A stretch of DNA of 64,000 nt from a virus. A program made the translations under genes and the position numbers. Shown here piece after piece: positions 10,016 to 63,983 of the stretch. The stretch spans positions 32,985 through 96,984 of the IMG/VR virus record IMGVR_UViG_3300025324_000011. One strand, 5' to 3'. Each line of letters begins with the position of its first letter. The stretch's first letter is position 1. A model generated the notes under the pieces. The model saw only the letters and a program-made list of their open reading frames with translations. It was not told the DNA's origin and made no database searches.

Positions 10016-10123
10016 TCGCCTGCGCCTACTAATCGTTGACGGTATAGTAAGGGAAATGCGGGGATGGTTAACTGCCGGTCTCTTTGCATAGACAATGTTC
10101 CAGACCTGCCTAATGGAGGTTGC

Positions 10124-11035
10124 ATGAGTGATGGAGCGAGCTTCGGGGACAGACTGCGAGCTGCGTCTGATTTCGCTTTTCTGGATGGCGTTGCCATCGC
10201 TATTGACCATGACGCAGAGAAATTGCGTGCGGAACGTGATGCATGGAAAGAAGCGGCCAGAGCTTGCGCCGATAACAGGGAAGTCCACCTCAGGGACAAT
10301 TGCCTGCTCATTCGGCGAAAGTTACTTGCGGATGTTTTGACAAGCGGGTGGTGTGATCGCTGCGAGGCAAGACTACGCAGGATGATCGATCGCATCCTGC
10401 CAGACGAGACATCCGATCCAGGTATCCAGTACCCAGTAGAAGAGACTTCTGCTTGCGACACGCACCTAGCAATCGATACAGGGAGACCACCGAGTGCGCC
10501 AGTTATCGCATTTTTTACTGGTCAGCACCGGTTTCTGTCAAACTTTTGGCCGTGCGAGGTCACCGGCCCTGGTGGCCTCATATATCCCAGCGTTGAGCAT
10601 GCCTACCAAGCCTATAAGTCAACATCTCCAGACGACTGGGCAGCGATTCATATGGCAATCTCACCAGGATTTGCCAGAAGCATGGGACGCTCGATACCAC
10701 GGGCTAGGTTTGATCCAGATTGGGATGACAAATGTCTGTCCATCATGGAGGAGCTACTACGACAGAAGTTCAGCCAGCCACCACTGAGAGATTATCTCTG
10801 TGCCACAGAGCCAGCGACGCTTATCGAAGGCAACACCTGGCGAGACCGGTTCTGGGGAGTGTATAACGGGAAGGGTGAGAACCATTTAGGCAGACTGCTC
10901 ATGCGCATCAGGGCCGATGCATCACGCAGCATCAATCCAACGGACTGGCCTGGGGGCGTGCCGTCAGATCCGCGTCCCTACCTGGAAGGGCATCCGCTGT
11001 CAGAGGATGAGGTAGCGCGCGGCCAGGCGCTTTAA
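10124..11035 (+). CDS. NADAR (YbiA-like) N-glycosidase-domain protein (303 aa)
   Basis: Start at ATG 10124 after TAATGGAGGTTGC. Residues ~125-270 match the NADAR family in order: FLSNFWPCEV, YPSVEHAYQAYK, R-x-D, a LLRQKF helix, LIEGNTWRDRFWGVYNG and NHLGRLLM. NADAR proteins cleave N-glycosidic bonds in riboflavin intermediates or ADP-ribosyl products and are linked to NAD metabolism and phage-host conflict. The first ~120 residues are extra: a helical stretch resembling a coiled coil and a C-x2-C pair. A fused, unassigned N-terminal domain is likely. Confidence 0.75.
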   Translation: MSDGASFGDRLRAASDFAFLDGVAIAIDHDAEKLRAERDAWKEAARACADNREVHLRDNCLLIRRKLLADVLTSGWCDRCEARLRRMIDRILPDETSDPGIQYPVEETSACDTHLAIDTGRPPSAPVIAFFTGQHRFLSNFWPCEVTGPGGLIYPSVEHAYQAYKSTSPDDWAAIHMAISPGFARSMGRSIPRARFDPDWDDKCLSIMEELLRQKFSQPPLRDYLCATEPATLIEGNTWRDRFWGVYNGKGENHLGRLLMRIRADASRSINPTDWPGGVPSDPRPYLEGHPLSEDEVARGQAL

Positions 11036-17828: not shown

Positions 17829-18245
17829 TCAGGAATGCCTTGCTTTCTCGCGGTCTAGATCGATCATTAGGGTGCGGACTTTTTCAACCATCTCATCATA
17901 ATCACTCATCGCTTGGCGGATTGGCCGCACTGCGCGATGAAGCACAATGCCAGCAATAAGCGAGACAACCGCAGTCAAGATTAGCATTCCCGATTCGAGT
18001 CCGTAGTAGGGCTGGAAGATGACAACGACGCCAATCAAATGGGAGATCCCGCAGAAGGCGATGAATACCGATGCTAGCATCCATAGCGCAGGCTGCGGTA
18101 TTTTTGACTGCGATGAAAGAACTCTTACAATCGAAACGGGGATCCAGGTATAGGCAATAAAAATCAGGACGTTGCCTATGATGATAGCCCACAGAAGAAC
18201 TGGATCAGAAATACAAGATTCCCGAGCGATCGATAAAACTTCCAT
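17829..18245 (-). CDS. Ethylene-receptor-type (ETR1) membrane-domain protein (138 aa)
   Basis: Three membrane helices: residues ~17-43, ~53-75 and ~84-106. The sequence IFIAYTWIP (28-36) and CGISHLI (65-71) align without gaps to IAYFSIP and CGATHLI of plant ETR1 (recalled), placing Cys65 and His69, the copper/ethylene ligands, at identical positions; Asn25 replaces Asp25. FQPYYGLESGMLILTAVVSL matches the third helix of bacterial histidine kinases with this domain. Here the kinase is absent: only a ~30-residue helical tail follows. It sits second from the end of the cassette. Confidence 0.65.
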   Translation of the reverse strand: MEVLSIARESCISDPVLLWAIIIGNVLIFIAYTWIPVSIVRVLSSQSKIPQPALWMLASVFIAFCGISHLIGVVVIFQPYYGLESGMLILTAVVSLIAGIVLHRAVRPIRQAMSDYDEMVEKVRTLMIDLDREKARHS

Positions 18246-50612: not shown

Positions 50613-50906
50613 ATGAGCAGTCACCCGCAATTATCGTGCTGGCAATGTCGTCATCTCATCTACAGTCTGGCATGGTGCGGGACTGATATCACGCCAGGTG
50701 ACGCCTTCGAGCTGTCATGCGCGAAAAAACACTGGAAATTTGATCCGCAGGAGTCCACCGTCGGAGATTTTCGGCGCTCAATGTCCGCGGCAGAAACGTG
50801 CGCCGACTTTCTTGACTTCAAGATGGATCGCGCACCATGGATGATAGCGCGCGTTGAATTTGATCGCCTCAGCCCGAAGGAGCGCTGGTTCCGTCGTGGC
50901 GCTTAA
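50613..50906 (+). CDS. Cys-rich small protein (97 aa)
   Basis: ATG after GAGGGAAAAGGA. CWQCRHLIYSLAWC, ELSCAKKHW and ETCADF give a Cys-rich, probably zinc- or iron-binding protein. C-terminal region has DRLSPKERWFRRG. Divergent from the structural operon. No family recognised. Confidence 0.55.
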   Translation: MSSHPQLSCWQCRHLIYSLAWCGTDITPGDAFELSCAKKHWKFDPQESTVGDFRRSMSAAETCADFLDFKMDRAPWMIARVEFDRLSPKERWFRRGA

Positions 50907-51147
50907 CTCAGAAGCATATTGGGCCGCCAAGCGCGGCGCCTTTGGTGACTACCTCCGCGAGCTAAGGGGAGAGCGCTCGCGCCGCGTAATCGTCGCTGGA
51001 CTCGAAGGACGGAATCAGGACTGGTACCGCCATATCGAAGACGGCAACCGCAGCTTCCTGCGGACAAGCGAAATCGGCGAGCTGGCGCAAGCTCTCGGCG
51101 TACCAGCCAACGACATATTCCGGAGGGCCCAGAAAGCTGGGTATTGA
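50896..51147 (+). CDS. XRE-like helix-turn-helix regulator (83 aa), GTG start
   Basis: GTG with GGAG twelve bases upstream. FGDYLRELRGERSRRVIVAG, WYRHIEDGNRSFLRTSEIGE and LAQALGVPANDIF follow the lambda-repressor-like HTH order. Too short for a full repressor with an oligomerisation domain. Overlaps the upstream gene by 11 bases. Confidence 0.6.
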   Translation: MALNSEAYWAAKRGAFGDYLRELRGERSRRVIVAGLEGRNQDWYRHIEDGNRSFLRTSEIGELAQALGVPANDIFRRAQKAGY

Positions 51148-51148
51148 A

Positions 51149-51304
51149 ATGAACGATGCTGCGGCGGCGTGGTTATGTGGCCTCGCAATATTGATGGTAA
51201 TCACGATGCTGATATACAAACTGCTGAAACGGCCGCGCAAGCCTACTGCGTCCTTCCAGCCGTCCTGTCCTTGTCTCCTTCTTCCTACGCTAGAGTTAGT
51301 GTAG
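51149..51304 (+). CDS. Micro membrane protein (51 aa)
   Basis: One membrane helix (WLCGLAILMVITMLIYKLL) followed by a Lys/Arg/Pro-rich and Cys-Pro-Cys tail. Starts just after the HTH gene without a strong ribosome site. Its 3' end overlaps the divergent promoter region of the RHH gene. Function unknown. Confidence 0.4.
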   Translation: MNDAAAAWLCGLAILMVITMLIYKLLKRPRKPTASFQPSCPCLLLPTLELV

Positions 51305-51385
51305 TCCCATTGGGAACCGATGTCAAGGGGTTTCTGGAAACTTTCTCATCTTGACTTTGTAGCCCCATTGGGCTAGAGTCTGAGC
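51298..51385. promoter_or_regulatory. Divergent promoters with repeated operator
   Basis: Plus: TTGACT (51351), 17 bases, TAGAGT (51374-51379), then six bases to ATG. Minus: TTGACA (51326 to 51321), 17 bases, TACACT (51303 to 51298). Each spacer holds a copy of TAGyCCCATTGGG (51302 and 51360), a near-palindrome. The RHH product downstream is the natural candidate to bind them. Confidence 0.55.
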
Positions 51386-51589
51386 ATGGCTAGACCGAAG
51401 ATGGAAGAGTTACGCCGGCATAGCGCCTCCATGCGAGTCCGTCTCCTGCCTGAGCATGACTCCCTGATCCGCGAAGCTGCCGAGCATGCCGTCAGGCGCA
51501 AAGGCTCCGGCGACCTGAGCGACTGGCTTCGGGAGGCCCTGGTCTCGGCGGCTCGCCGCGAGTTGAAGAGGGACGGCGGGGAGGCATAG
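51386..51589 (+). CDS. RHH regulator (67 aa), leaderless layout
   Basis: ASMRVRLLPEHDSLIREAAE then SGDLSDWLREALVSAARREL fits the RHH fold. ATG is six bases after the -10 box, with no Shine-Dalgarno sequence, so the mRNA is probably leaderless. Likely autoregulated through the CCCATTGGG operators. Followed directly by a terminator hairpin overlapping its stop codon. Confidence 0.6.
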   Translation: MARPKMEELRRHSASMRVRLLPEHDSLIREAAEHAVRRKGSGDLSDWLREALVSAARRELKRDGGEA

Positions 51590-51607
51590 GACCTCCCGCA
51601 CCGTCCC
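51566..51607 (+). terminator. Terminator-like hairpin at the RHH stop codon
   Basis: GGGACGG and GGGGAGG pair with CCTCCC and CCGTCCC around ATAGGA. Long GC stem but no T tract. Confidence 0.45.
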
Positions 51608-51720
51608 TGCGGCGGTATGCGGGAGCGGGGAAGGCTAGGCCGAAGCAACTCGGCTAGCTGGCCGCTCCCGCGTGTGGTGCCTGGAGAATCGGCCCACATG
51701 GCGGCACCCCCTTTCCGGGG

Positions 51721-51750
51721 TTGCGACGCGGGCCGCCTGAGTGCTATACT
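51721..51750 (+). promoter_or_regulatory. Extended -10 promoter
   Basis: TTGCGA, 18-base spacer, TGC-TATACT: an extended -10 (TGnTATACT). No ORF follows; a terminator lies about 75 bases after the predicted start. Confidence 0.5.
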
Positions 51751-51756
51751 GCGCGG

Positions 51757-51831
51757 TCTGTTGAGATCTCAGACGGCCTTTGTCTGGTTCTCTGAATCGC
51801 CAGCGGTTAGTCCCCGCTGGCGATTCCATTT
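51757..51831 (+). ncRNA. Candidate small RNA (~75 nt)
   Basis: Bounded by an extended -10 promoter and a strong terminator. The transcript would fold a first hairpin CAGAC-ggccttt-GTCTG (51769-51785) and then the terminator stem. A GAGATCTC palindrome lies in its 5' part. No reading frame of note. Could be antisense or sRNA; targets unknown. Confidence 0.45.
51794..51831 (+). terminator. Rho-independent terminator
   Basis: GAATCGCCAGCGG, loop TTAGTCC, CCGCTGGCGATTC, then CATTTTT. A perfect 13-base stem. Confidence 0.8.
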
Positions 51832-51934
51832 TTAAGGGGCAATCTCGGGAAATTGGCTCGACCTGGGAGAGAAATCGAGAAATTTTCTCCCAGACTCGGC
51901 AAGCCTGGGAGAAAATTATGGCTCCGCTTGGAGT

Positions 51935-52930
51935 TTAAACCCATGGTTTTCTAAGCAACCTCAAAAGATACTTGCGGAACTGAGCTTCCGGCGAGTTTTC
52001 TAGATACCATTGTAACTGCGCCGAAGGTAGGTTGTCTAGGTACTTCCGGATCAGCGCATCCGGTTTATTGGCGAGGTACTTCTGCAATGTTGATACGGGA
52101 TCTGGATCGTCCAGAGACTCGCCGGAATGCCACTGCGCAACCCGTTCTGCTCGGCTGGCGAGATGAGCCGTGGCCGGAGCAATCTGTTTATGCCGCGCAA
52201 AGGCGACCGCAAGTCCTACCAGAACGCCGAGGGCTATGCCCGGAACACCCGGCAGGAGTGTTCCAAAAATGAGTGTGGCGCCGAAAATCGAGCCGACCGA
52301 TTCGGCGATTATGCCCGGTGAAGTTTCCTTGCCGCGATCAAGGCCGAGGTTTTTTTGCAGCTCGTCTTGCATTTTCTTGAACTTTGGCAGGACATCATCA
52401 ATTGCTCGCACGGTGGCGTAATCCTCTGCGGACAGGCGTTTGGGCGCAACGCTGCTTAAAGCCTCAAGAGACACAGCGTAAGCATCGCGCACCAAGAGGG
52501 TAGCCTCTCGTATCGTTTCTAGGTCATCGATTATGAATTCCTGATCTCGAATTAGGTCTTGCCACTTCACGCGCGTATGGCGCGGCGCTTGCGCTTGCGT
52601 TTTTCGAAGCTCTTGCAACCTTATTTGACTGCCGCGCAGTTCCGCTTCCGCCCAATCAATGCTGGACTGTTGCCGAAAAATTTCCTCGGTCAGAGTCTTC
52701 CGTAAGGCCGTAAGGTTTTCTTCTAGGATGCCATGCTGCTGGATATCAGCTACCATCTTAGGTAGACCGCTGATCAATTCTTGAGCTGAACGCAAAAAAT
52801 CCGATCTTCGTTCAGCCGCTCTCGTCCGATCTATGGTGCGCCACTCATCCATTGTGCTCACGAGCGCAGCCGGATTCCACGCTTGACTAACATAGTCATG
52901 CAGGAAAAAGGTGGGGGGCATAGCCGGCAT
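51935..52930 (-). CDS. Coiled-coil membrane protein with 11-residue C-terminal repeats (331 aa)
   Basis: Residues ~25-195 are helical and heptad-rich (LTALRKTLTEEIFRQQSSID). A long hydrophobic Gly-rich span (VGSIFGATLIFGTLLPGVPG, then LGVLVGLAVAFA) at ~212-245 looks membrane-inserting or hairpin-forming. The C-terminus repeats Y-L-x-N-x-P-x-A four times (KYLANKPDALI, KYLDNLPSAQL, WYLENSPEAQF, KYLLRLLRKP). The lone minus gene in a regulatory island with its own promoter resembles a moron. Role in superinfection exclusion or abortive infection is inference. Confidence 0.55.
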   Translation of the reverse strand: MPAMPPTFFLHDYVSQAWNPAALVSTMDEWRTIDRTRAAERRSDFLRSAQELISGLPKMVADIQQHGILEENLTALRKTLTEEIFRQQSSIDWAEAELRGSQIRLQELRKTQAQAPRHTRVKWQDLIRDQEFIIDDLETIREATLLVRDAYAVSLEALSSVAPKRLSAEDYATVRAIDDVLPKFKKMQDELQKNLGLDRGKETSPGIIAESVGSIFGATLIFGTLLPGVPGIALGVLVGLAVAFARHKQIAPATAHLASRAERVAQWHSGESLDDPDPVSTLQKYLANKPDALIRKYLDNLPSAQLQWYLENSPEAQFRKYLLRLLRKPWV

Positions 52931-52937
52931 GCCGCCG

Positions 52938-52964
52938 ATTCTATAGGAGATTCCCGGCTGTCAA
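52938..52964 (-). promoter_or_regulatory. Candidate promoter of the repeat-bearing membrane gene
   Basis: Minus strand: TTGACA, 15 bases (short), TAGAAT, then seven bases to ATG with no Shine-Dalgarno sequence. Layout is leaderless, as for the RHH genes. Confidence 0.4.
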
Positions 52965-52987
52965 CCACCAGCAAAGTGTACCATACT

Positions 52988-53220
52988 GCTAGTACAGCGG
53001 TGCAGCCCCCGCCTTCGGGAGAAGAGGGCTGCACTAGCGCCCGCTCGTATAGCCGTGCCCCCATCCGCCCTAACCATCAACGTCTAAGAGACGCCAAGGA
53101 GCGGCAGGCAAGGTGAGGCCATACGGTCGCTCGGGCCGCTACGGTGGATGTGGTGGGAAGATGCGCTCTCCCCTCCTGGAGGGGAGGTTAGACCGGTCCG
53201 GCAGGTTTGCGGACCGGTCT
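52988..53220. other. Gene-free stretch with three strong hairpins
   Basis: GCTAGT...GTGCAGCCC pairs with GGGCTGCACTAGC (52988-53038); CTCCCCT-cctgg-AGGGGAG (53168-53186); AGACCGGTCC-11-GGACCGGTCT (53190-53220). No T tracts. Lies between the divergent genes at 52930 and 53294; may be attachment, insulating or RNA-structure sequence. No gene seen from 52931 to 53293. Confidence 0.5.
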
Positions 53221-53293
53221 GGGCGTAACTTTGCAAGGGACAGCGCTACCCAAATTTCCCATTAAAATTGTCCCTGACGCAGCCAGGTAATCG

Positions 53294-53548
53294 ATGAGAA
53301 GCTCGGAACTTTGCGGATATTTCTTTGACAATGGGTGGACTTGCACTCGCCGCAGAGGACACGATGGGCTGCATGAGGCTCATGGATTCAGAGGACGAAC
53401 GATGCACGTACAGGGCTCCGACGCATGCCGCGAAGGCGCCATCGACTTCTCCGATGCGACAGTACAGCTCGCTACAGCTAACTCCGCCTTAGATTCATTG
53501 CTGAGCATCCTTGCGTGGCTGATTGAACGCCTTAAGATCAGACCATAG
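53294..53548 (+). CDS. Small protein with C/GHxGxH motif (84 aa)
   Basis: CGYFFDNGWTCTRRRGHDGLHE at the N-terminus is the C-x9-C-x4-GH-x-G-x-H pattern also found at 15172 and in the protease gene. The C-terminal half is a helix (ALDSLLSILAWLIERLKI). It is an isolated plus-strand gene ended by a long hairpin terminator. Function unknown. Confidence 0.55.
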   Translation: MRSSELCGYFFDNGWTCTRRRGHDGLHEAHGFRGRTMHVQGSDACREGAIDFSDATVQLATANSALDSLLSILAWLIERLKIRP

Positions 53549-53559
53549 CGAGCGGATGG

Positions 53560-53579
53560 CCCCCCCCCCCCTTTTTTTT
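53560..53579 (+). repeat. Homopolymer tract C12 T8
   Basis: Twelve C then eight T between the stop at 53548 and an 18-base hairpin. The window also ends in eleven C (63990-64000). May be a phase-variable tract or an assembly weakness. Confidence 0.7.
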
Positions 53580-53583
53580 ATAG

Positions 53584-53630
53584 ACCACGCAGGCAAGGCC
53601 CCGATGAGGGCCTTGCCTGCGTGGTTCTTT
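53584..53630 (+). terminator. Long hairpin terminator
   Basis: ACCACGCAGGCAAGGCCC, loop CGATGA, GGGCCTTGCCTGCGTGGT, then TCTTT. A perfect 18-base stem ending the gene at 53294; also faces the minus gene ending at 53647. Confidence 0.75.
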
Positions 53631-53646
53631 GTTGGGGAATCCGGCG

Positions 53647-54180
53647 TCAGCGAACGGTCGTGGTACCACAGCCCCACTCGCTGAGGTGCGTGTTATCGCC
53701 AGCAATACATTGACACTGCTGTCCGTGTCCTTCCGTGGGGCTATCAACCGTGATGCACATCCACAAAGTGGTGGTCGTTTGGCTACCATCGGCGCGTGCG
53801 TGCGGCATTGACTCGGTTCCAACTCGCGGTGGGGCGCCGTTGTAGGAGTTCATACAACTGAGGTTTCCGACTTTCCAGCCACCGCAAAACGTCACTACGT
53901 CGAGCGTACACCCAGCGGAGAAGCACTTCATATCCTCGCCGCGAAGGGTTCCTCCCTCATCGAATTTACACCACCCCTGCGACGCATTGCCTGAGAAATC
54001 AAATGGGCCGGTGGCGCTGTTTGCGCAACTTCCCGTCGTCACGTGCCGCTGGTGGATTCCCGGAGCCCAGGGGCTGAAAAAGCCCCCGCAGTCGTCGGCT
54101 TGACTAAAAAGTTGCCGCGGAAGCAAAAACACGAAAACCAGGCAGACCACTGCGAGAAAACACACCGCTTTCGTTCGCAT
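53647..54180 (-). CDS. Secreted Cys-rich protein (177 aa)
   Basis: Signal peptide (KAVCFLAVVCLVFVFLLP, cleavage near FSQA-D at ~28). The mature part has about twelve Cys (for example DDCGGFF, GWCKFDEGG, TFCGGWKVGNLSCMN, QQCQCIAGD), consistent with a disulfide-rich secreted protein. Ribosome site AAAGGAGAAGGTATCT. Located at the end of the left-reading portal block. Function unknown. Confidence 0.6.
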   Translation of the reverse strand: MRTKAVCFLAVVCLVFVFLLPRQLFSQADDCGGFFSPWAPGIHQRHVTTGSCANSATGPFDFSGNASQGWCKFDEGGTLRGEDMKCFSAGCTLDVVTFCGGWKVGNLSCMNSYNGAPPRVGTESMPHARADGSQTTTTLWMCITVDSPTEGHGQQCQCIAGDNTHLSEWGCGTTTVR

Positions 54181-54278
54181 AGATACCTTCTCCTTTCCTT
54201 TTTCTGGAGCCGTTGTTTTTGATTGCTCCGGGCATCCCTCGGCGAGGGACACCCGCGGCCGTCAAGCGCACCGTAAAC

Positions 54279-56420
54279 TCAGTCGGCCAAGGCAATCAAC
54301 CGCCTAACAATTGTCTTCGCGTCCAATCCTACGCCCGTTCGCAGTAGTCCATTCTCAGTTCCAAGATCGGAGACCAGCTTATTCAGGCGATCGATCTCGG
54401 TCCGCAGCCTTATCACTTCGCTGCTGTCTGGCGTCGGCGAAGGATCAGGCTTCGGCGGCCCTGGTTCAGGCTTCGGATCGGGTTTCGGCAGCGGCTGCTT
54501 CGGCATGACCAGTGCGTAGTACGCCACGATTGGCATGCCGCCTTGGTCACGCGCGCCGTTCCAGGCCATGGCGAGGTCGGTAAAAATCTCTTTCCATAGA
54601 GGATCCCCGTCCGAAACAGGAAGATCAATGATTATACCGAACACCCCGGCCGCGTTGGCTCTCCGTACTAGTTCAATGGAGAAGGTCTCTCCCACCAAGA
54701 GCCCCTTCCCATCCTTAATCCCTCTTGTCTGACCATAGGCCGCGACCCAGAGGCCGTCCGTAGCAGGCTCCGGGAATGGCGCTTCCGGAAACAGAGTCCC
54801 CGTTGGATACTTCTGCGCCGACCCGCCTCCGACGCGCATAGCGGTCATCGTGAATCCAAGGGATTTTAGCGCCGATGCCATAATCCGCACGTGCTTATCC
54901 TCCTGCGGCTTAGGCCGCGGTCCATTTCCTTCATCAAGGCCAGAAACGATTTCTATGACGTGTCCGAAAGGAGGGATGTACGCTCTCGGCTGCTCGCTAT
55001 CAAGCTGTTCATCTCGAAGAACCCATGTTTTTGGCAGTGCTAAGCCAATAACGATCGCTCCGGGACCAAGCGCTGTTTTCGTCGGTAATTTGACGAGTAA
55101 CCCACCTGCTTCGCTTAACAGGGTTGCTTTCATTCCATCCCAAAGAAGTCGATAAATAGCGGTAGCCCCCCAGGGAACTTGGATTCCGCCCTTCTGTTCA
55201 CCGCTTGCCTCCAATCGGTGATGACCCCTACCCTGACGTCCAATCGTCCAAGCGAATCCCTGCTTCCACTTCTTCTGATTATCAATCGGCCCAACGCTGA
55301 CGCCGATCAACGGGATAATGCCACCCGCGGGGCGATTATTCGGAAACGACACGCGCACCTTGAGATCTAAGGGAAGTCCATCATATGGAATGACAAGCGA
55401 GGTTGACGAGGATGGAGCGCTGCGCCCTGGATCTCGAGGAAGTACAATCCGCGTACCACTATTGATTACTGGCCGCGGCTGAGGTTCTGATGGTTTTTTA
55501 TCTGATGCCGGCGCATCCGCTTCGTCGAACCATGGCACTAGATGCAAACCGACAGTGATATCGCTTACGAGAAGCCCCGGAGGCAGCGGTAGGACATTGT
55601 CGCCGTAAACATCAGAACCATACCGAATGAACGCGCTGTCAATACCATCGATTTCTGCCCAAGAATAATCTCCGCGACGCGCGCGAAATCCTCCATCTGG
55701 CGGCAGGAACCTGCGCTCCTTGGTAACGTTATCCCAAGTCCCCGCAAGAATCGGAGTTGTATTGCTGTTAATCGTTCTGGCGTGAACGACCGCCTTGCCA
55801 CCCTCTGTTTCTACGATCCTGATTGGATACGCCACCGGTAGATCTTGGATGTCTAGGTCAAGGGAGGCCATGTAGAGATCGTGGAGTCTCTGCTTGAGCA
55901 GCAGGCCGGCATGATACGTCCACTTCATTCGAAGCCCATATTTGGCGGCCTGCGCCCACGATTCCGCCTGCTTGAGTCCGGCTTGATCGTCGCGCGCCAA
56001 GGCGAGCAGCCACTCATACCTGCCTGCGTGCGGATAGTGGCCACCGCTACGTTGCCCGAACCATAGGCACGTTCCATCTCCGCACTCTGTGGCCTCCAGA
56101 AATGCAAGAAACCAAGAACACCAGCTGGCGGCCGATGGGATCTCGGTTGAGACCGACGCTTCGGCCAAAAAACTCCAATCGCTATAAATCCACGAACAGA
56201 CCTCGGTACCACCCCAAGAGAGGCGCTCACGTTGGTGCCGCTCGTGCCAAGAGGCGACAGCGCGATCCTTGTTTTCGCCCAAGAGAATTCGTACAGCGTC
56301 ACGGAGGCGCGGGCGATTTTCTCCTGGTTGGTTATCGTTCTTGTAGCCGAAAGTGTTTGGGGCCTTACCCTCGATGGCTGCAAGAAGTTCCTGGCCGAGG
56401 GTCTGTTCGTCGCCAGCCAC
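54279..56420 (-). CDS. Large unknown protein with Pro-rich linker and C-terminal helix (713 aa)
   Basis: The first ~190 residues are Trp- and Cys-rich (WSFLAEASVSTEIPSAASWC, CGDGTCLWFGQRSGGHYPH). The middle is strand-rich with FAWTIGRQGRGHHRLEASGE. Residues ~560-650 (LWVAAYGQTRGIKDGKGLLV, AAGVFGIIIDLPVSDGDPLW, GMPIVAYYALVMPK) look like part of a TIM-barrel-like hydrolase domain. Then a Pro/Lys/Asp linker and a coiled coil (RLRTEIDRLNKLVSDLG). Structural or lytic roles are both possible; no family recognised. Confidence 0.5.
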   Translation of the reverse strand: MAGDEQTLGQELLAAIEGKAPNTFGYKNDNQPGENRPRLRDAVRILLGENKDRAVASWHERHQRERLSWGGTEVCSWIYSDWSFLAEASVSTEIPSAASWCSWFLAFLEATECGDGTCLWFGQRSGGHYPHAGRYEWLLALARDDQAGLKQAESWAQAAKYGLRMKWTYHAGLLLKQRLHDLYMASLDLDIQDLPVAYPIRIVETEGGKAVVHARTINSNTTPILAGTWDNVTKERRFLPPDGGFRARRGDYSWAEIDGIDSAFIRYGSDVYGDNVLPLPPGLLVSDITVGLHLVPWFDEADAPASDKKPSEPQPRPVINSGTRIVLPRDPGRSAPSSSTSLVIPYDGLPLDLKVRVSFPNNRPAGGIIPLIGVSVGPIDNQKKWKQGFAWTIGRQGRGHHRLEASGEQKGGIQVPWGATAIYRLLWDGMKATLLSEAGGLLVKLPTKTALGPGAIVIGLALPKTWVLRDEQLDSEQPRAYIPPFGHVIEIVSGLDEGNGPRPKPQEDKHVRIMASALKSLGFTMTAMRVGGGSAQKYPTGTLFPEAPFPEPATDGLWVAAYGQTRGIKDGKGLLVGETFSIELVRRANAAGVFGIIIDLPVSDGDPLWKEIFTDLAMAWNGARDQGGMPIVAYYALVMPKQPLPKPDPKPEPGPPKPDPSPTPDSSEVIRLRTEIDRLNKLVSDLGTENGLLRTGVGLDAKTIVRRLIALAD

Positions 56421-56608
56421 TAGATTTCCTTCGTGCGTACGGAACGCATTTCAGTCTTGGCGGTCAGCGCTGGTAATGCGCGATTGACGGATAAACACTC
56501 CTTCATGCGCGCGAAGCTATCCTGTTCATATAACCTCGCGAATGAGTCCTCGTTGACCTGCGACCAAACAACGTTTTCATTGTACCAGTGGATGCGATAA
56601 GTTGCCAT
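56420..56608 (-). CDS. Small unknown protein (62 aa)
   Basis: ATG after TGAGGTGGTTACC; TAG overlaps the ATG of the next gene. Begins MATYRIHWYNENVVWSQVNE, an aromatic beta-like start, then ARLYEQDSFARMKECL. No family recognised. Confidence 0.5.
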   Translation of the reverse strand: MATYRIHWYNENVVWSQVNEDSFARLYEQDSFARMKECLSVNRALPALTAKTEMRSVRTKEI

Positions 56609-56621
56609 GGTAACCACCACC

Positions 56622-57050
56622 TCAATCTGGACAATCGGCACAGGTGATGCGTGATGGCCTCACGAACATCCCGGACTGCTGCCCCCACACTCTCACCTCT
56701 GCATTCTGTTCGATCTTTGCGGCGATAACCGCGAACCGACCCGTGCAGATCACAAACTTCGGCGCATACTCGCCGATGACGTTCACTGGTAGGAGGACGC
56801 CAAGCGGCTCTCCGCGAGTGAGCAGCTGAGAAAGCGCCGCAGAGACAAGCGGATCTTGGATTGCGACCTCGGCCGCCGTTGCGTTGAGCGGAACCTGCTC
56901 TCCCGCAAAGCCCCTCAACTCCATGTCGGCAAACTTAGCCGACGTGAACGTGGCGGCTCCGATCGAACGCATCGCCGAGCATCCGCTGCAAAGGACGACC
57001 GCTACGGCGATGATAATTGAAATGTAAGCCGCTGAATGTTTGTTTCGCAA
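56622..57050 (-). CDS. Lipoprotein (142 aa)
   Basis: Signal peptide with lipobox: AAYISIIIAVAVVLCSGC-S, Cys near residue 24. The mature protein is globular (VPLNATAAEVAIQDPLVSAA, GVLLPVNVIGEYAPKFVICT) with a Cys pair at the end (CADC). Phage lipoproteins may be o-spanins or superinfection-exclusion factors; the length is more like the latter (inference). Confidence 0.6.
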   Translation of the reverse strand: MRNKHSAAYISIIIAVAVVLCSGCSAMRSIGAATFTSAKFADMELRGFAGEQVPLNATAAEVAIQDPLVSAALSQLLTRGEPLGVLLPVNVIGEYAPKFVICTGRFAVIAAKIEQNAEVRVWGQQSGMFVRPSRITCADCPD

Positions 57051-57092
57051 GGTTGAAACTCCTTTCTATGGCTTAGGGCAAGCCAGTTGAAA

Positions 57093-57194
57093 TCATTCAC
57101 CTCTTCGTTTCAGATAATTCAATGACATGATCGCCACAACGAAGACTAGCACGCAGAGAGCAACGTCGAACCAAAAGTCATAATCTTCTAGCAC
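57093..57194 (-). CDS. Micro membrane protein (33 aa), GTG start
   Basis: GTG after CGGAGGGCGAGGC. One hydrophobic helix (WFDVALCVLVFVVAIMSL) with a short basic tail. Overlaps the upstream micro-gene by 17 bases. Ribosome site and topology are the evidence. Confidence 0.45.
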   Translation of the reverse strand: MLEDYDFWFDVALCVLVFVVAIMSLNYLKRRGE

Positions 57195-57309
57195 GCCTCG
57201 CCCTCCGCCGTTTGTAGTCGGTGATCTCAGCGGCGCGTACGAGACCGCGTATCATATCACTTACCTCCACGTCGCCTCCCTCTTCTACGCAATCCATCAC
57301 ATTTCCCAT
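57178..57309 (-). CDS. Micro-gene (43 aa)
   Basis: ATG start; product begins GNVMDCVEEGGDVEVSDM and ends with a very basic RRRARRARRL. Overlaps the next micro-gene, suggesting coupling. Weak ribosome site. Confidence 0.35.
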   Translation of the reverse strand: MGNVMDCVEEGGDVEVSDMIRGLVRAAEITDYKRRRARRARRL

Positions 57310-57344
57310 TATACAGGTTGTGGTTATCTGGCGTCAAGTCGTGG

Positions 57345-60153: not shown

Positions 60154-60660
60154 TCAAGTCGAAGCCGGGAGACCGGCTTGATAGAAGAAGCGGCGTATGT
60201 TGGAATCGTCGATATCTACGCCCCTGACCTTGCCGTGTTCCTGAGCACGCTTCCACGCCTCTTCCCAAGGGGAACCTGGTGCATGACTAATGTTAGATAG
60301 TTGCACGCCCGAATAGTGACCGTACTCCATCCACACCTTCTCTAGGACCGATAGCGCCGAGGGATCGGTTATCCGCGGGATTACCCACTCTTTGCCATCA
60401 AAGATTGTGGCCGGGCCGGCAATCGTGGAGTTTCCGTCTTTCTTGAATTCGTGATAAACAGTTGGAACAACTGGCCCGTAAGGCCATGCCTCAACATTCT
60501 CGTCGAGAAGAGGCTCGCCGGTCACGGCAAGGTGCCAGCCATGCGCGAAGTAGATCAGCTTTTGGAGCTTAAGCGGGTCCACTGGCACGCCTGACGCCTT
60601 GCTCTTCTCGATGAAGAAATTGGCGACGGCTAGCGTTGGTTGAGGTGAAGAGCTGTACAT
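60154..60660 (-). CDS. Panacea (SocA/DUF4065-like) antitoxin-domain protein (168 aa)
   Basis: Start at ATG 60660 after GGAGGTGTACCATC. FFIEKSKASGVPVDPLKLQK, LIYFAHGWHLAVTGEPLLDE and VEAWPYGPVVPTVYHEFKKD are the diagnostic Panacea blocks. Panacea proteins serve as antitoxins for many unrelated toxins and as proteolytic adaptors. No clear toxin is fused; the neighbouring genes at 60795 (opposite strand) and 61091 are candidates (inference). Confidence 0.8.
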   Translation of the reverse strand: MYSSSPQPTLAVANFFIEKSKASGVPVDPLKLQKLIYFAHGWHLAVTGEPLLDENVEAWPYGPVVPTVYHEFKKDGNSTIAGPATIFDGKEWVIPRITDPSALSVLEKVWMEYGHYSGVQLSNISHAPGSPWEEAWKRAQEHGKVRGVDIDDSNIRRFFYQAGLPAST

Positions 60661-60794
60661 GATGGTACACCTCCACCCAAGAGAGTGGACGGCTCCGAAG
60701 TATGGTCGCACACTTAGCTGACGAGAGTCAAAGCCGCCGGTAGGTGGCTCGCTGTGGTTCCTTTTGACCTGCCGTGAAATATCCTGCAAGATCA

Positions 60795-60998
60795 ATGGTT
60801 TACAGCCGGTTCGGAGTGATCCCGCGCGGCTCGACGCACACCTACTCCCTTGTCTATCTGCCGGAGCGGCGCCTGCTGGCGACGTTCCGGTACGCCCGCC
60901 ACTGCCGAAGCTTGGCCGCGGAACTCGCCCCGCTCTTACTGCGTGATGAGCAAGCGGCGGTAGCGGTGACGGCGCGGCATTTGCGCGAAGCGACCTAG
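60795..60998 (+). CDS. Small unknown protein (67 aa)
   Basis: VYSRFGVIPRGSTHTYSLVY, then LPERRLLATFRYARHCRSLA and a helical end. Good composition, weak ribosome site; GTG 60774 is an alternative start. Points away from the Panacea gene and ends at a GC-rich hairpin. Could be the small partner of the Panacea protein, but no toxin motif is seen. Confidence 0.45.
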   Translation: MVYSRFGVIPRGSTHTYSLVYLPERRLLATFRYARHCRSLAAELAPLLLRDEQAAVAVTARHLREAT

Positions 60999-61012
60999 AC
61001 AACTTACCCCCA

Positions 61013-63014: not shown

Positions 63015-63983
63015 ATGCCGACCATGCAAGCCTGCCCAACCTGCCAGACCGACACCTGCAAGCGCTTCGGCCACACCCGCGAGGGACACCAGCGGTTCCG
63101 CTGCCGCACCTGCCGCAAGACGTTCTCCGAGCGGCCTGACCGTCCCCTTGGGGACATGCGGCTCCCCTTGGACCGCGCGCTCCTCTGCTTGCACCTTCTG
63201 TGCGAGGGGAACTCGGTTCGCGCCGTCGAGCGCATTACAGGAACTGAGAAAAAGACAATTCTCCGCCTGCTTGTCCAGGTCGGGCAGGGGTGCGAGAGGA
63301 TACTTGAGGAGACGGTCAAGGCGGTCCCGGTCAACGACGTCCAGGCGGATGAGGTGTGGACCTACATCACCTGCAAGCAGAAGACTCGCGAACGCAAGGG
63401 AATCACGGACCCGGACGCAGGGGATGCTTATTGCTTCATCGGCATTGAACGTACCTCTAAGCTGGTGCTCGCGTGGCACCTCGGCCGGCGTAACAAGTGG
63501 GACGCCCACGATTTCATGGAGAAACTGAGCAACGCGACCACGGGCGAATTCCAGCTTTCGACCGATGGTTTCGCCGGTTTCGTGGACGGCGCGGAATGGA
63601 ACCTTGGCTCGCGGGTTGACTACGCGCAAGTTATCAAGGAATTCGGCACTGCGGGCGGCGAAGAAGCGCGGCGGTACGCTCCGCCGCGCCTGATAGGACA
63701 GGAGAAAGTCACCATCTTCGGCACCCCGGATGAGGACCGGGCTTGCACGTCACACGTCGAGCGCGGCAACTGGACGCTGCGCGGCCATCTTCGCCGATTC
63801 ACCCGCCTGAGCAACGGCTTCTCTCGCAAGAAGGAAAACCTGCGGGCCGCGCTGGCGCTCTACTTCAGTTATTACAACTTCGTCCGGATGCACAAGGCAA
63901 TCCGCATGACGCCGGCTATGGCGGCGGGGATCGCTAAGAAGCCTTGGGAGATGGCGGATCTGGTGAAGGCGGCAATGGGTTAA
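63015..63983 (+). CDS. IS1-like transposase (322 aa)
   Basis: N-terminal zinc ribbon (ACPTCQTDTCKRFGHTREGH, RCRTCRKTFSERPDR) followed by a helix-turn-helix (EGNSVRAVERITGTEKKTIL), as in IS1-type InsA regions, here in one frame. Catalytic blocks: QADEVWTYI (first Asp), LSTDGFAGF (second Asp), and ERGNWTLRGHLRRFTR (Glu), then FSYYNFVRMHKAIRMTPAMA. The gene is complete. Terminal inverted repeats were not found; the right end may lie beyond the window. ATG 63024 with AAAGG upstream is an alternative start. Confidence 0.75.
   Translation: MPTMQACPTCQTDTCKRFGHTREGHQRFRCRTCRKTFSERPDRPLGDMRLPLDRALLCLHLLCEGNSVRAVERITGTEKKTILRLLVQVGQGCERILEETVKAVPVNDVQADEVWTYITCKQKTRERKGITDPDAGDAYCFIGIERTSKLVLAWHLGRRNKWDAHDFMEKLSNATTGEFQLSTDGFAGFVDGAEWNLGSRVDYAQVIKEFGTAGGEEARRYAPPRLIGQEKVTIFGTPDEDRACTSHVERGNWTLRGHLRRFTRLSNGFSRKKENLRAALALYFSYYNFVRMHKAIRMTPAMAAGIAKKPWEMADLVKAAMG

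Follow-up and report, generated by a model that had tools for sequence, protein, structure and literature searches.

A predicted membrane-anchored helical orphan protein with a C-terminal 12-residue repeat, encoded by a putative accessory gene of an uncultured siphovirus

What kind of protein does a lone minus-strand gene at 51935..52930 encode, and what might it do for the virus that carries it? The gene lies in the record IMGVR_UViG_3300025324_000011, which comprises 96,984 bases (about 97 kb). Bases 32985–96984 of this record, a stretch of 64,000 nucleotides, were analyzed and are called the window in the following. Judged by its gene content, the source virus is an uncultured siphovirus, i.e., a long-tailed phage, because the window encodes a tape-measure protein (1996 aa), a portal, an HK97-type capsid protein and a MuF-like protein. 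A close named relative was looked for, and none was found. A terminase search yielded one 48-kb record and one 4-kb fragment as better relatives. The only close relative found was IMGVR_UViG_3300041404_000129 (G045), itself a 48-kb fragment, and scans by capsid and protease alignment led to G045 again and to no other record. Helicase-based relatives amounted to 73 loci, and 44 records were searched. The focal gene was found in 0 of these 44 helicase-sharing viral records, as was a convincing portal match, and they were rejected as relatives because the helicase was the only thing in common.

The existence of a lone minus-strand gene at this site, as proposed by the first-pass annotation, was confirmed with exact coordinates, an ATG start and 331 codons. 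A codon score was computed against the confident genes of the same phage. The in-frame score was 0.137, compared to 0.143 for the MuF-like gene, 0.121 for a 713-aa gene and 0.205 for the MCP gene, and the two other frames of the same strand had negative scores. The GC contents at the three codon positions (0.63/0.42/0.55) were similar to those of the neighboring genes. The focal ORF is a real gene whose codon signature agrees with that of the other genes of this phage, and its 331-aa product (P0001) is described below as a membrane-anchored helical orphan protein.

For the whole protein, no credible match was obtained in Pfam, PHROGs, PADLOC, NCBIfam or the PDB, by tblastn against phages and plasmids, or in pattern scans of IMG/VR and GTDB. 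Searches with the membrane and C-terminal part, with sub-parts and with the N-terminal part alone resulted only in chance-level matches. Fold searches with both structural models yielded no match at E ≤ 0.001; the SMC-like, 14-3-3, Vipp1 and SipB folds that turned up are typical of a generic helical bundle and were rejected. A DNA pattern of two consecutive repeat units matched one viral and one genome contig, and both matches were discarded because they are antisense to real genes, i.e., a tape-measure-like ORF and the gene for a substrate-binding-like protein. A suspected kinship of the LPGVPG hairpin with the DUF454, DUF456 or PGPGW membrane families was dropped as Pfam gave no match. By these searches, the protein currently has no known relatives and counts as an orphan. 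Orphan genes of such kind are common in uncultured phages.

The first-pass annotation had described a long coiled coil followed by a Gly-rich membrane span. Long helices of a helical hairpin or bundle, coiled-coil-like in character, are indeed predicted for residues 35–195 (52346..52828, minus strand). The AlphaFold single-sequence model places them at residues 35–66, 70–114, 117–159 and 168–194, and is fair only at about residues 71–160 (pLDDT 72–88; overall pLDDT 54). However, the heptad regularity was only marginal (shuffle p = 0.06), and therefore, "helical bundle or hairpin" is a safer label than rod-like coiled coil.

Residues 206–246 (52193..52315, minus strand) form a Gly-rich hydrophobic segment with a central PGVPG, which includes the charge-free 34-residue stretch SVGSIFGATLIFGTLLPGVPGIALGVLVGLAVAF. 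The hydropathy over this segment reached 2.0 on the GES and 2.1 on the Kyte-Doolittle scale, which supports the earlier view that the product is a membrane protein and leads to its prediction as an integral one. The model contains helices at residues 206–225 and 231–245, albeit with low confidence, and the segment probably folds into two short membrane helices on either side of PGVPG, i.e., it is a predicted hairpin anchor rather than one span. The protein has no obvious N-terminal signal peptide, and the residues R-H-K come after the second membrane helix; on this basis, both protein ends are expected to be cytoplasmic. A plain membrane anchor would account for the Gly-rich hairpin just as well as a pore-like segment would, and the earlier reading of the protein as a sensor rod joined to a pore-like segment goes beyond the data.

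The C-terminal repeat exists, but it differs from the four 11-residue units that had been described. The motifs YLANKPDA, YLDNLPSA and YLENSPEA begin at residues 285, 297 and 309 and are followed by the remnant KYLLRLL; hence, there are three full units plus a remnant, and the period is 12. The three units of 12 residues are KYLANKPDALIR (residues 284–295; 52046..52081), KYLDNLPSAQLQ (296–307; 52010..52045) and WYLENSPEAQFR (308–319; 51974..52009), and the degenerate fourth unit is KYLLRLLR (320–327; 51950..51973), all on the minus strand. The best self-match at lag 12 was 15, a value that was reached by none of 1000 shuffles (mean 8.6, maximum 13). The DNA pattern of one unit was found three times in the window, always in the focal gene, while 0.04 occurrences were expected. 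The full units have 6 of 12 residues and 21–23 of 36 bases in common, which makes a recent DNA duplication an unlikely origin of the repeat. When the C-terminal segment was modeled alone with AlphaFold, four short helices were predicted (pLDDT 73–85), one per unit and with breaks at N-x-P. This predicted stack of short helices is similar to the cytosolic domain of MgtE, and a weak Foldseek match to 2yvy was observed (TM 0.44). However, its E-value of 2.4 is not significant, and Pfam gave no MgtE_N match.

How might the gene be expressed? A promoter-like box with leaderless geometry, TTGACA-15-TAGAAT (52938..52964, minus strand), is located upstream, with TTGACA at 52964–52959 and TAGAAT at 52943–52938. 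The box ends 7 nt upstream of the ATG, and thus, the transcript would be leaderless. When the complete 97-kb record was scanned for ATG-proximal boxes, the focal gene was the only substantial ORF served, next to one other ORF of 63 aa, and shuffles gave 0–1 matches ahead of ORFs of at least 60 aa. The box may be a chance occurrence. No strong Shine-Dalgarno motif was found upstream of the ATG, and therefore, leaderless expression appears plausible. Box and geometry of the previously proposed leaderless-type promoter are thus present, but the spacer of 15 nt is below the optimal length. Directly 3′ of the stop codon, a terminator-like 17-bp hairpin was found (51881..51917, minus strand; z −4.1 for a 101-nt stretch), which does not have the clean T-run of a classical terminator.

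The gene was also said to be placed between regulatory genes and a hairpin-rich gap. It is flanked on one side by plus-strand regulatory genes, i.e., an HTH gene (50854–51147) and a 67-aa regulator-like ORF (51386–51589), and the gap on the other side contains strong hairpins, but this gap is not empty. It harbors a small plus-strand ORF (53294–53548, 84 aa) with a C..C..H..H-type motif. This ORF is followed by a terminator-like inverted repeat with 18 perfectly matching bp (19 pairs in the scan; region 53294–53626) and a short T-rich tail. A run of C and T is present at about 53560–53580.

A comparison with G045 was used to characterize the surroundings. The head and tail genes of G045 and the window are collinear, and the identities are 60% for the MCP, 66% over 238 aa for the protease, 50% for the portal, 53% for the MuF-like protein and 56% for the HTH protein. 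The distance from the HTH gene to the MuF-like gene is 6.2 kb in the window versus about 0.8 kb in G045, where the gap contains only small unrelated ORFs. The cargo stretch of about 6 kb (51148..57344) is inserted among the phage head genes, with the focal gene on the late strand. None of the 67-aa, focal, 84-aa, 201-aa, 713-aa and 142-aa genes has a homologue in the 48 kb of G045 (best E 0.12). As the focal gene is absent from G045, in which the HTH and MuF-like genes are near neighbors, it would represent cargo in a variable site, a view that is based on one fragmentary relative. This absence, the promoter-like box and the downstream hairpin support the earlier label "moron-like".

Three further cargo genes are located on the minus strand. 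They encode a protein listed with 201 aa that combines a signal-peptide-like stretch with a Cys-rich secreted domain (53647..54252), a 713-aa protein for which no homologue was found (54279..56420), and a 142-aa protein with a lipoprotein-like signal (VVLCSGC) at its start (56622..57050). A promoter-like box just after the MuF-like gene (TTGACG-18-TATAAT, 11/12; 57337–57308, minus strand) stands ahead of the 142-aa, 713-aa and 201-aa genes. From their sequences, the focal protein and two of the other cargo products look envelope-directed.

Several other genes of the record have recognizable domains. A 138-aa membrane protein (17829–18245, minus strand) matches ETR1_N, the ethylene-receptor N-terminal domain (E 1e-18), which is unusual in a phage record. 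It carries a C-x-x-x-H segment (FCGISHLIG) that resembles the metal-binding helix of this domain. A Panacea/SocA-like antitoxin domain (60154–61002, minus strand; E 6e-23) is encoded upstream of the portal gene, and a NADAR domain protein at 10064–11035 (plus strand; E 7e-21); the NADAR family is linked to NAD/ADP-ribose chemistry. A trypsin-like protease gene is present near the left end (L004:30-992, minus strand), and two adjacent genes (L005:13025-15048, plus strand) seem, by eye, to encode a J-domain plus kinase-like protein and a von Willebrand A-like protein, without a Pfam match. An InsA/IS1-like transposase gene (63015–63983, plus strand) occupies the extreme end of the contig and may explain why the assembly stopped there.

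The most economical reading of the focal gene is that of a single-gene accessory membrane protein, which may modify the membrane of the host or hinder rival phages. That the gene is cargo and that its product has the described membrane anatomy is quite probable. The full statement, i.e., an accessory (moron-type) cargo gene for a membrane-anchored protein with an exclusion function, is a tentative proposal. According to this proposal, the gene would be transcribed from its own promoter, and the hairpin would anchor the protein in the inner membrane, with the helical N-terminal part and the C-terminal helix stack both in the cytoplasm. As a guess, the protein could bind an entry or membrane partner and, like other small phage membrane proteins, could interfere with the DNA entry or the development of competing phages. 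A more specific version, in which a new, hairpin-anchored single-gene exclusion protein recognizes the entry apparatus of other phages with its 12-residue short-helix repeat and belongs to an envelope-directed cargo cluster, seems rather doubtful.

The putative exclusion function is a guess by analogy, and good precedents exist. Membrane proteins are found among the proteins with which long-tailed phages achieve exclusion by blocking DNA injection, e.g., HK97 gp15 and those of Tuc2009 and TP-J34, and SieA likewise blocks DNA injection (PMC10883804). Like HK97 gp15, P22 SieA, Sie2009 of Tuc2009 and Ltp of TP-J34, the focal protein would be the membrane product of a single accessory phage gene; for those proteins, a membrane location has been predicted or shown (PMC10883804). 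In contrast to SieA, which has 162–164 aa and three predicted membrane spans, the focal protein comprises 331 aa and combines a large helical domain with a single hairpin and the repeat. The phage, plasmid, Pfam, PHROG and PADLOC searches revealed no relationship by sequence to known exclusion proteins, and no similarity to any phage record searched. Tab of JBD26 is an anti-phage moron with its own promoter inside the late operon (PMC10884400). Similarly, the focal gene is an addition among genes for morphogenesis, comes with a promoter-like box of its own and is absent from a relative. However, Tab, with just 83 residues, acts by preventing the assembly of virions, and its gene is oriented against the late operon, whereas the focal gene is on the late strand. 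SNIPE is a membrane-bound defence protein that acts at genome injection, and it shares with the presumed topology of the focal protein an inner-membrane anchor and a cytoplasmic remainder (PMC13190303). In contrast to SNIPE, no nuclease or DUF4041 domain was matched, and the anchor is found in the C-terminal half instead of close to the N-terminus.

The full proposal, from the cargo gene to the exclusion function, is supported by the codon signature, the hydropathy, the repeat statistics, the short C-terminal helices and the absence from G045, and further by the promoter-like box, the trailing hairpin, the envelope-directed-looking neighbors and the exclusion and moron precedents. It is weakened by the lack of a homologue with a tested function, the empty PADLOC scan, the restriction to one relative, the 15-nt spacer and the hairpin without a T-run. 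In addition, exclusion pays most in lysogeny. The argument leans on a temperate life style, and it is weakened because neither a tyrosine nor a serine integrase nor ParA was found in the record, which may be a fragment.

About as likely as exclusion, although less specific, is a possible action of the accessory membrane protein on the host, e.g., envelope tethering or remodeling, altered transport or help with the takeover during the phage's own infection. The anatomy and the location fit this reading just as they fit exclusion, and the envelope-directed cargo neighbors and the missing defence-library match are in agreement with it, but there is no specific pointer to a host target. A virion or ejection component that penetrates membranes, is packaged in the head or is used at DNA entry is unlikely. 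Such a component would fit a gene that lies on the late strand within the cluster of head genes and close to the MuF-like and protease genes, and helical, hydrophobic ejection proteins exist. Nevertheless, G045 keeps the head module without this gene, a 1996-aa tape-measure protein is already present, and homology to a structural protein, which would speak against the earlier annotation, was not found, with no PHROG head or tail match. Improbable, too, is an abortive-infection effector whose hairpin depolarizes the membrane once the helical part or the repeat senses a phage: the gene is a single-gene unit without a match to a toxin or defence family, and although a Gly-rich hairpin with 34 uncharged residues adjoins the long helices, plain anchors can be Gly-rich hairpins too. 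A holin-like or lysis-timing function is very unlikely, as the protein is much longer than usual holins, has a long soluble N-terminal part, and lacks an endolysin neighbor and a family match; the membrane hairpin and the fact that no holin or endolysin was recognized among the genes scanned are the points in its favor. A degenerate or chance reading frame without function would account for the lack of homologues anywhere searched, but it can hardly be reconciled with a frame open over 341 codons, a codon score and codon-position GC contents that resemble those of phage genes, and a repeat that is preserved better as a protein pattern than a recent DNA duplication would explain.

Taken together, the interval from the HTH gene to the MuF-like gene is a likely site of cargo insertion in this virus group. 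Confirmation of the focal protein as an exclusion protein would bring a new and unrelated sequence family into this class of phage membrane proteins, few of which are understood mechanistically, and its repeat would be an obvious experimental handle.
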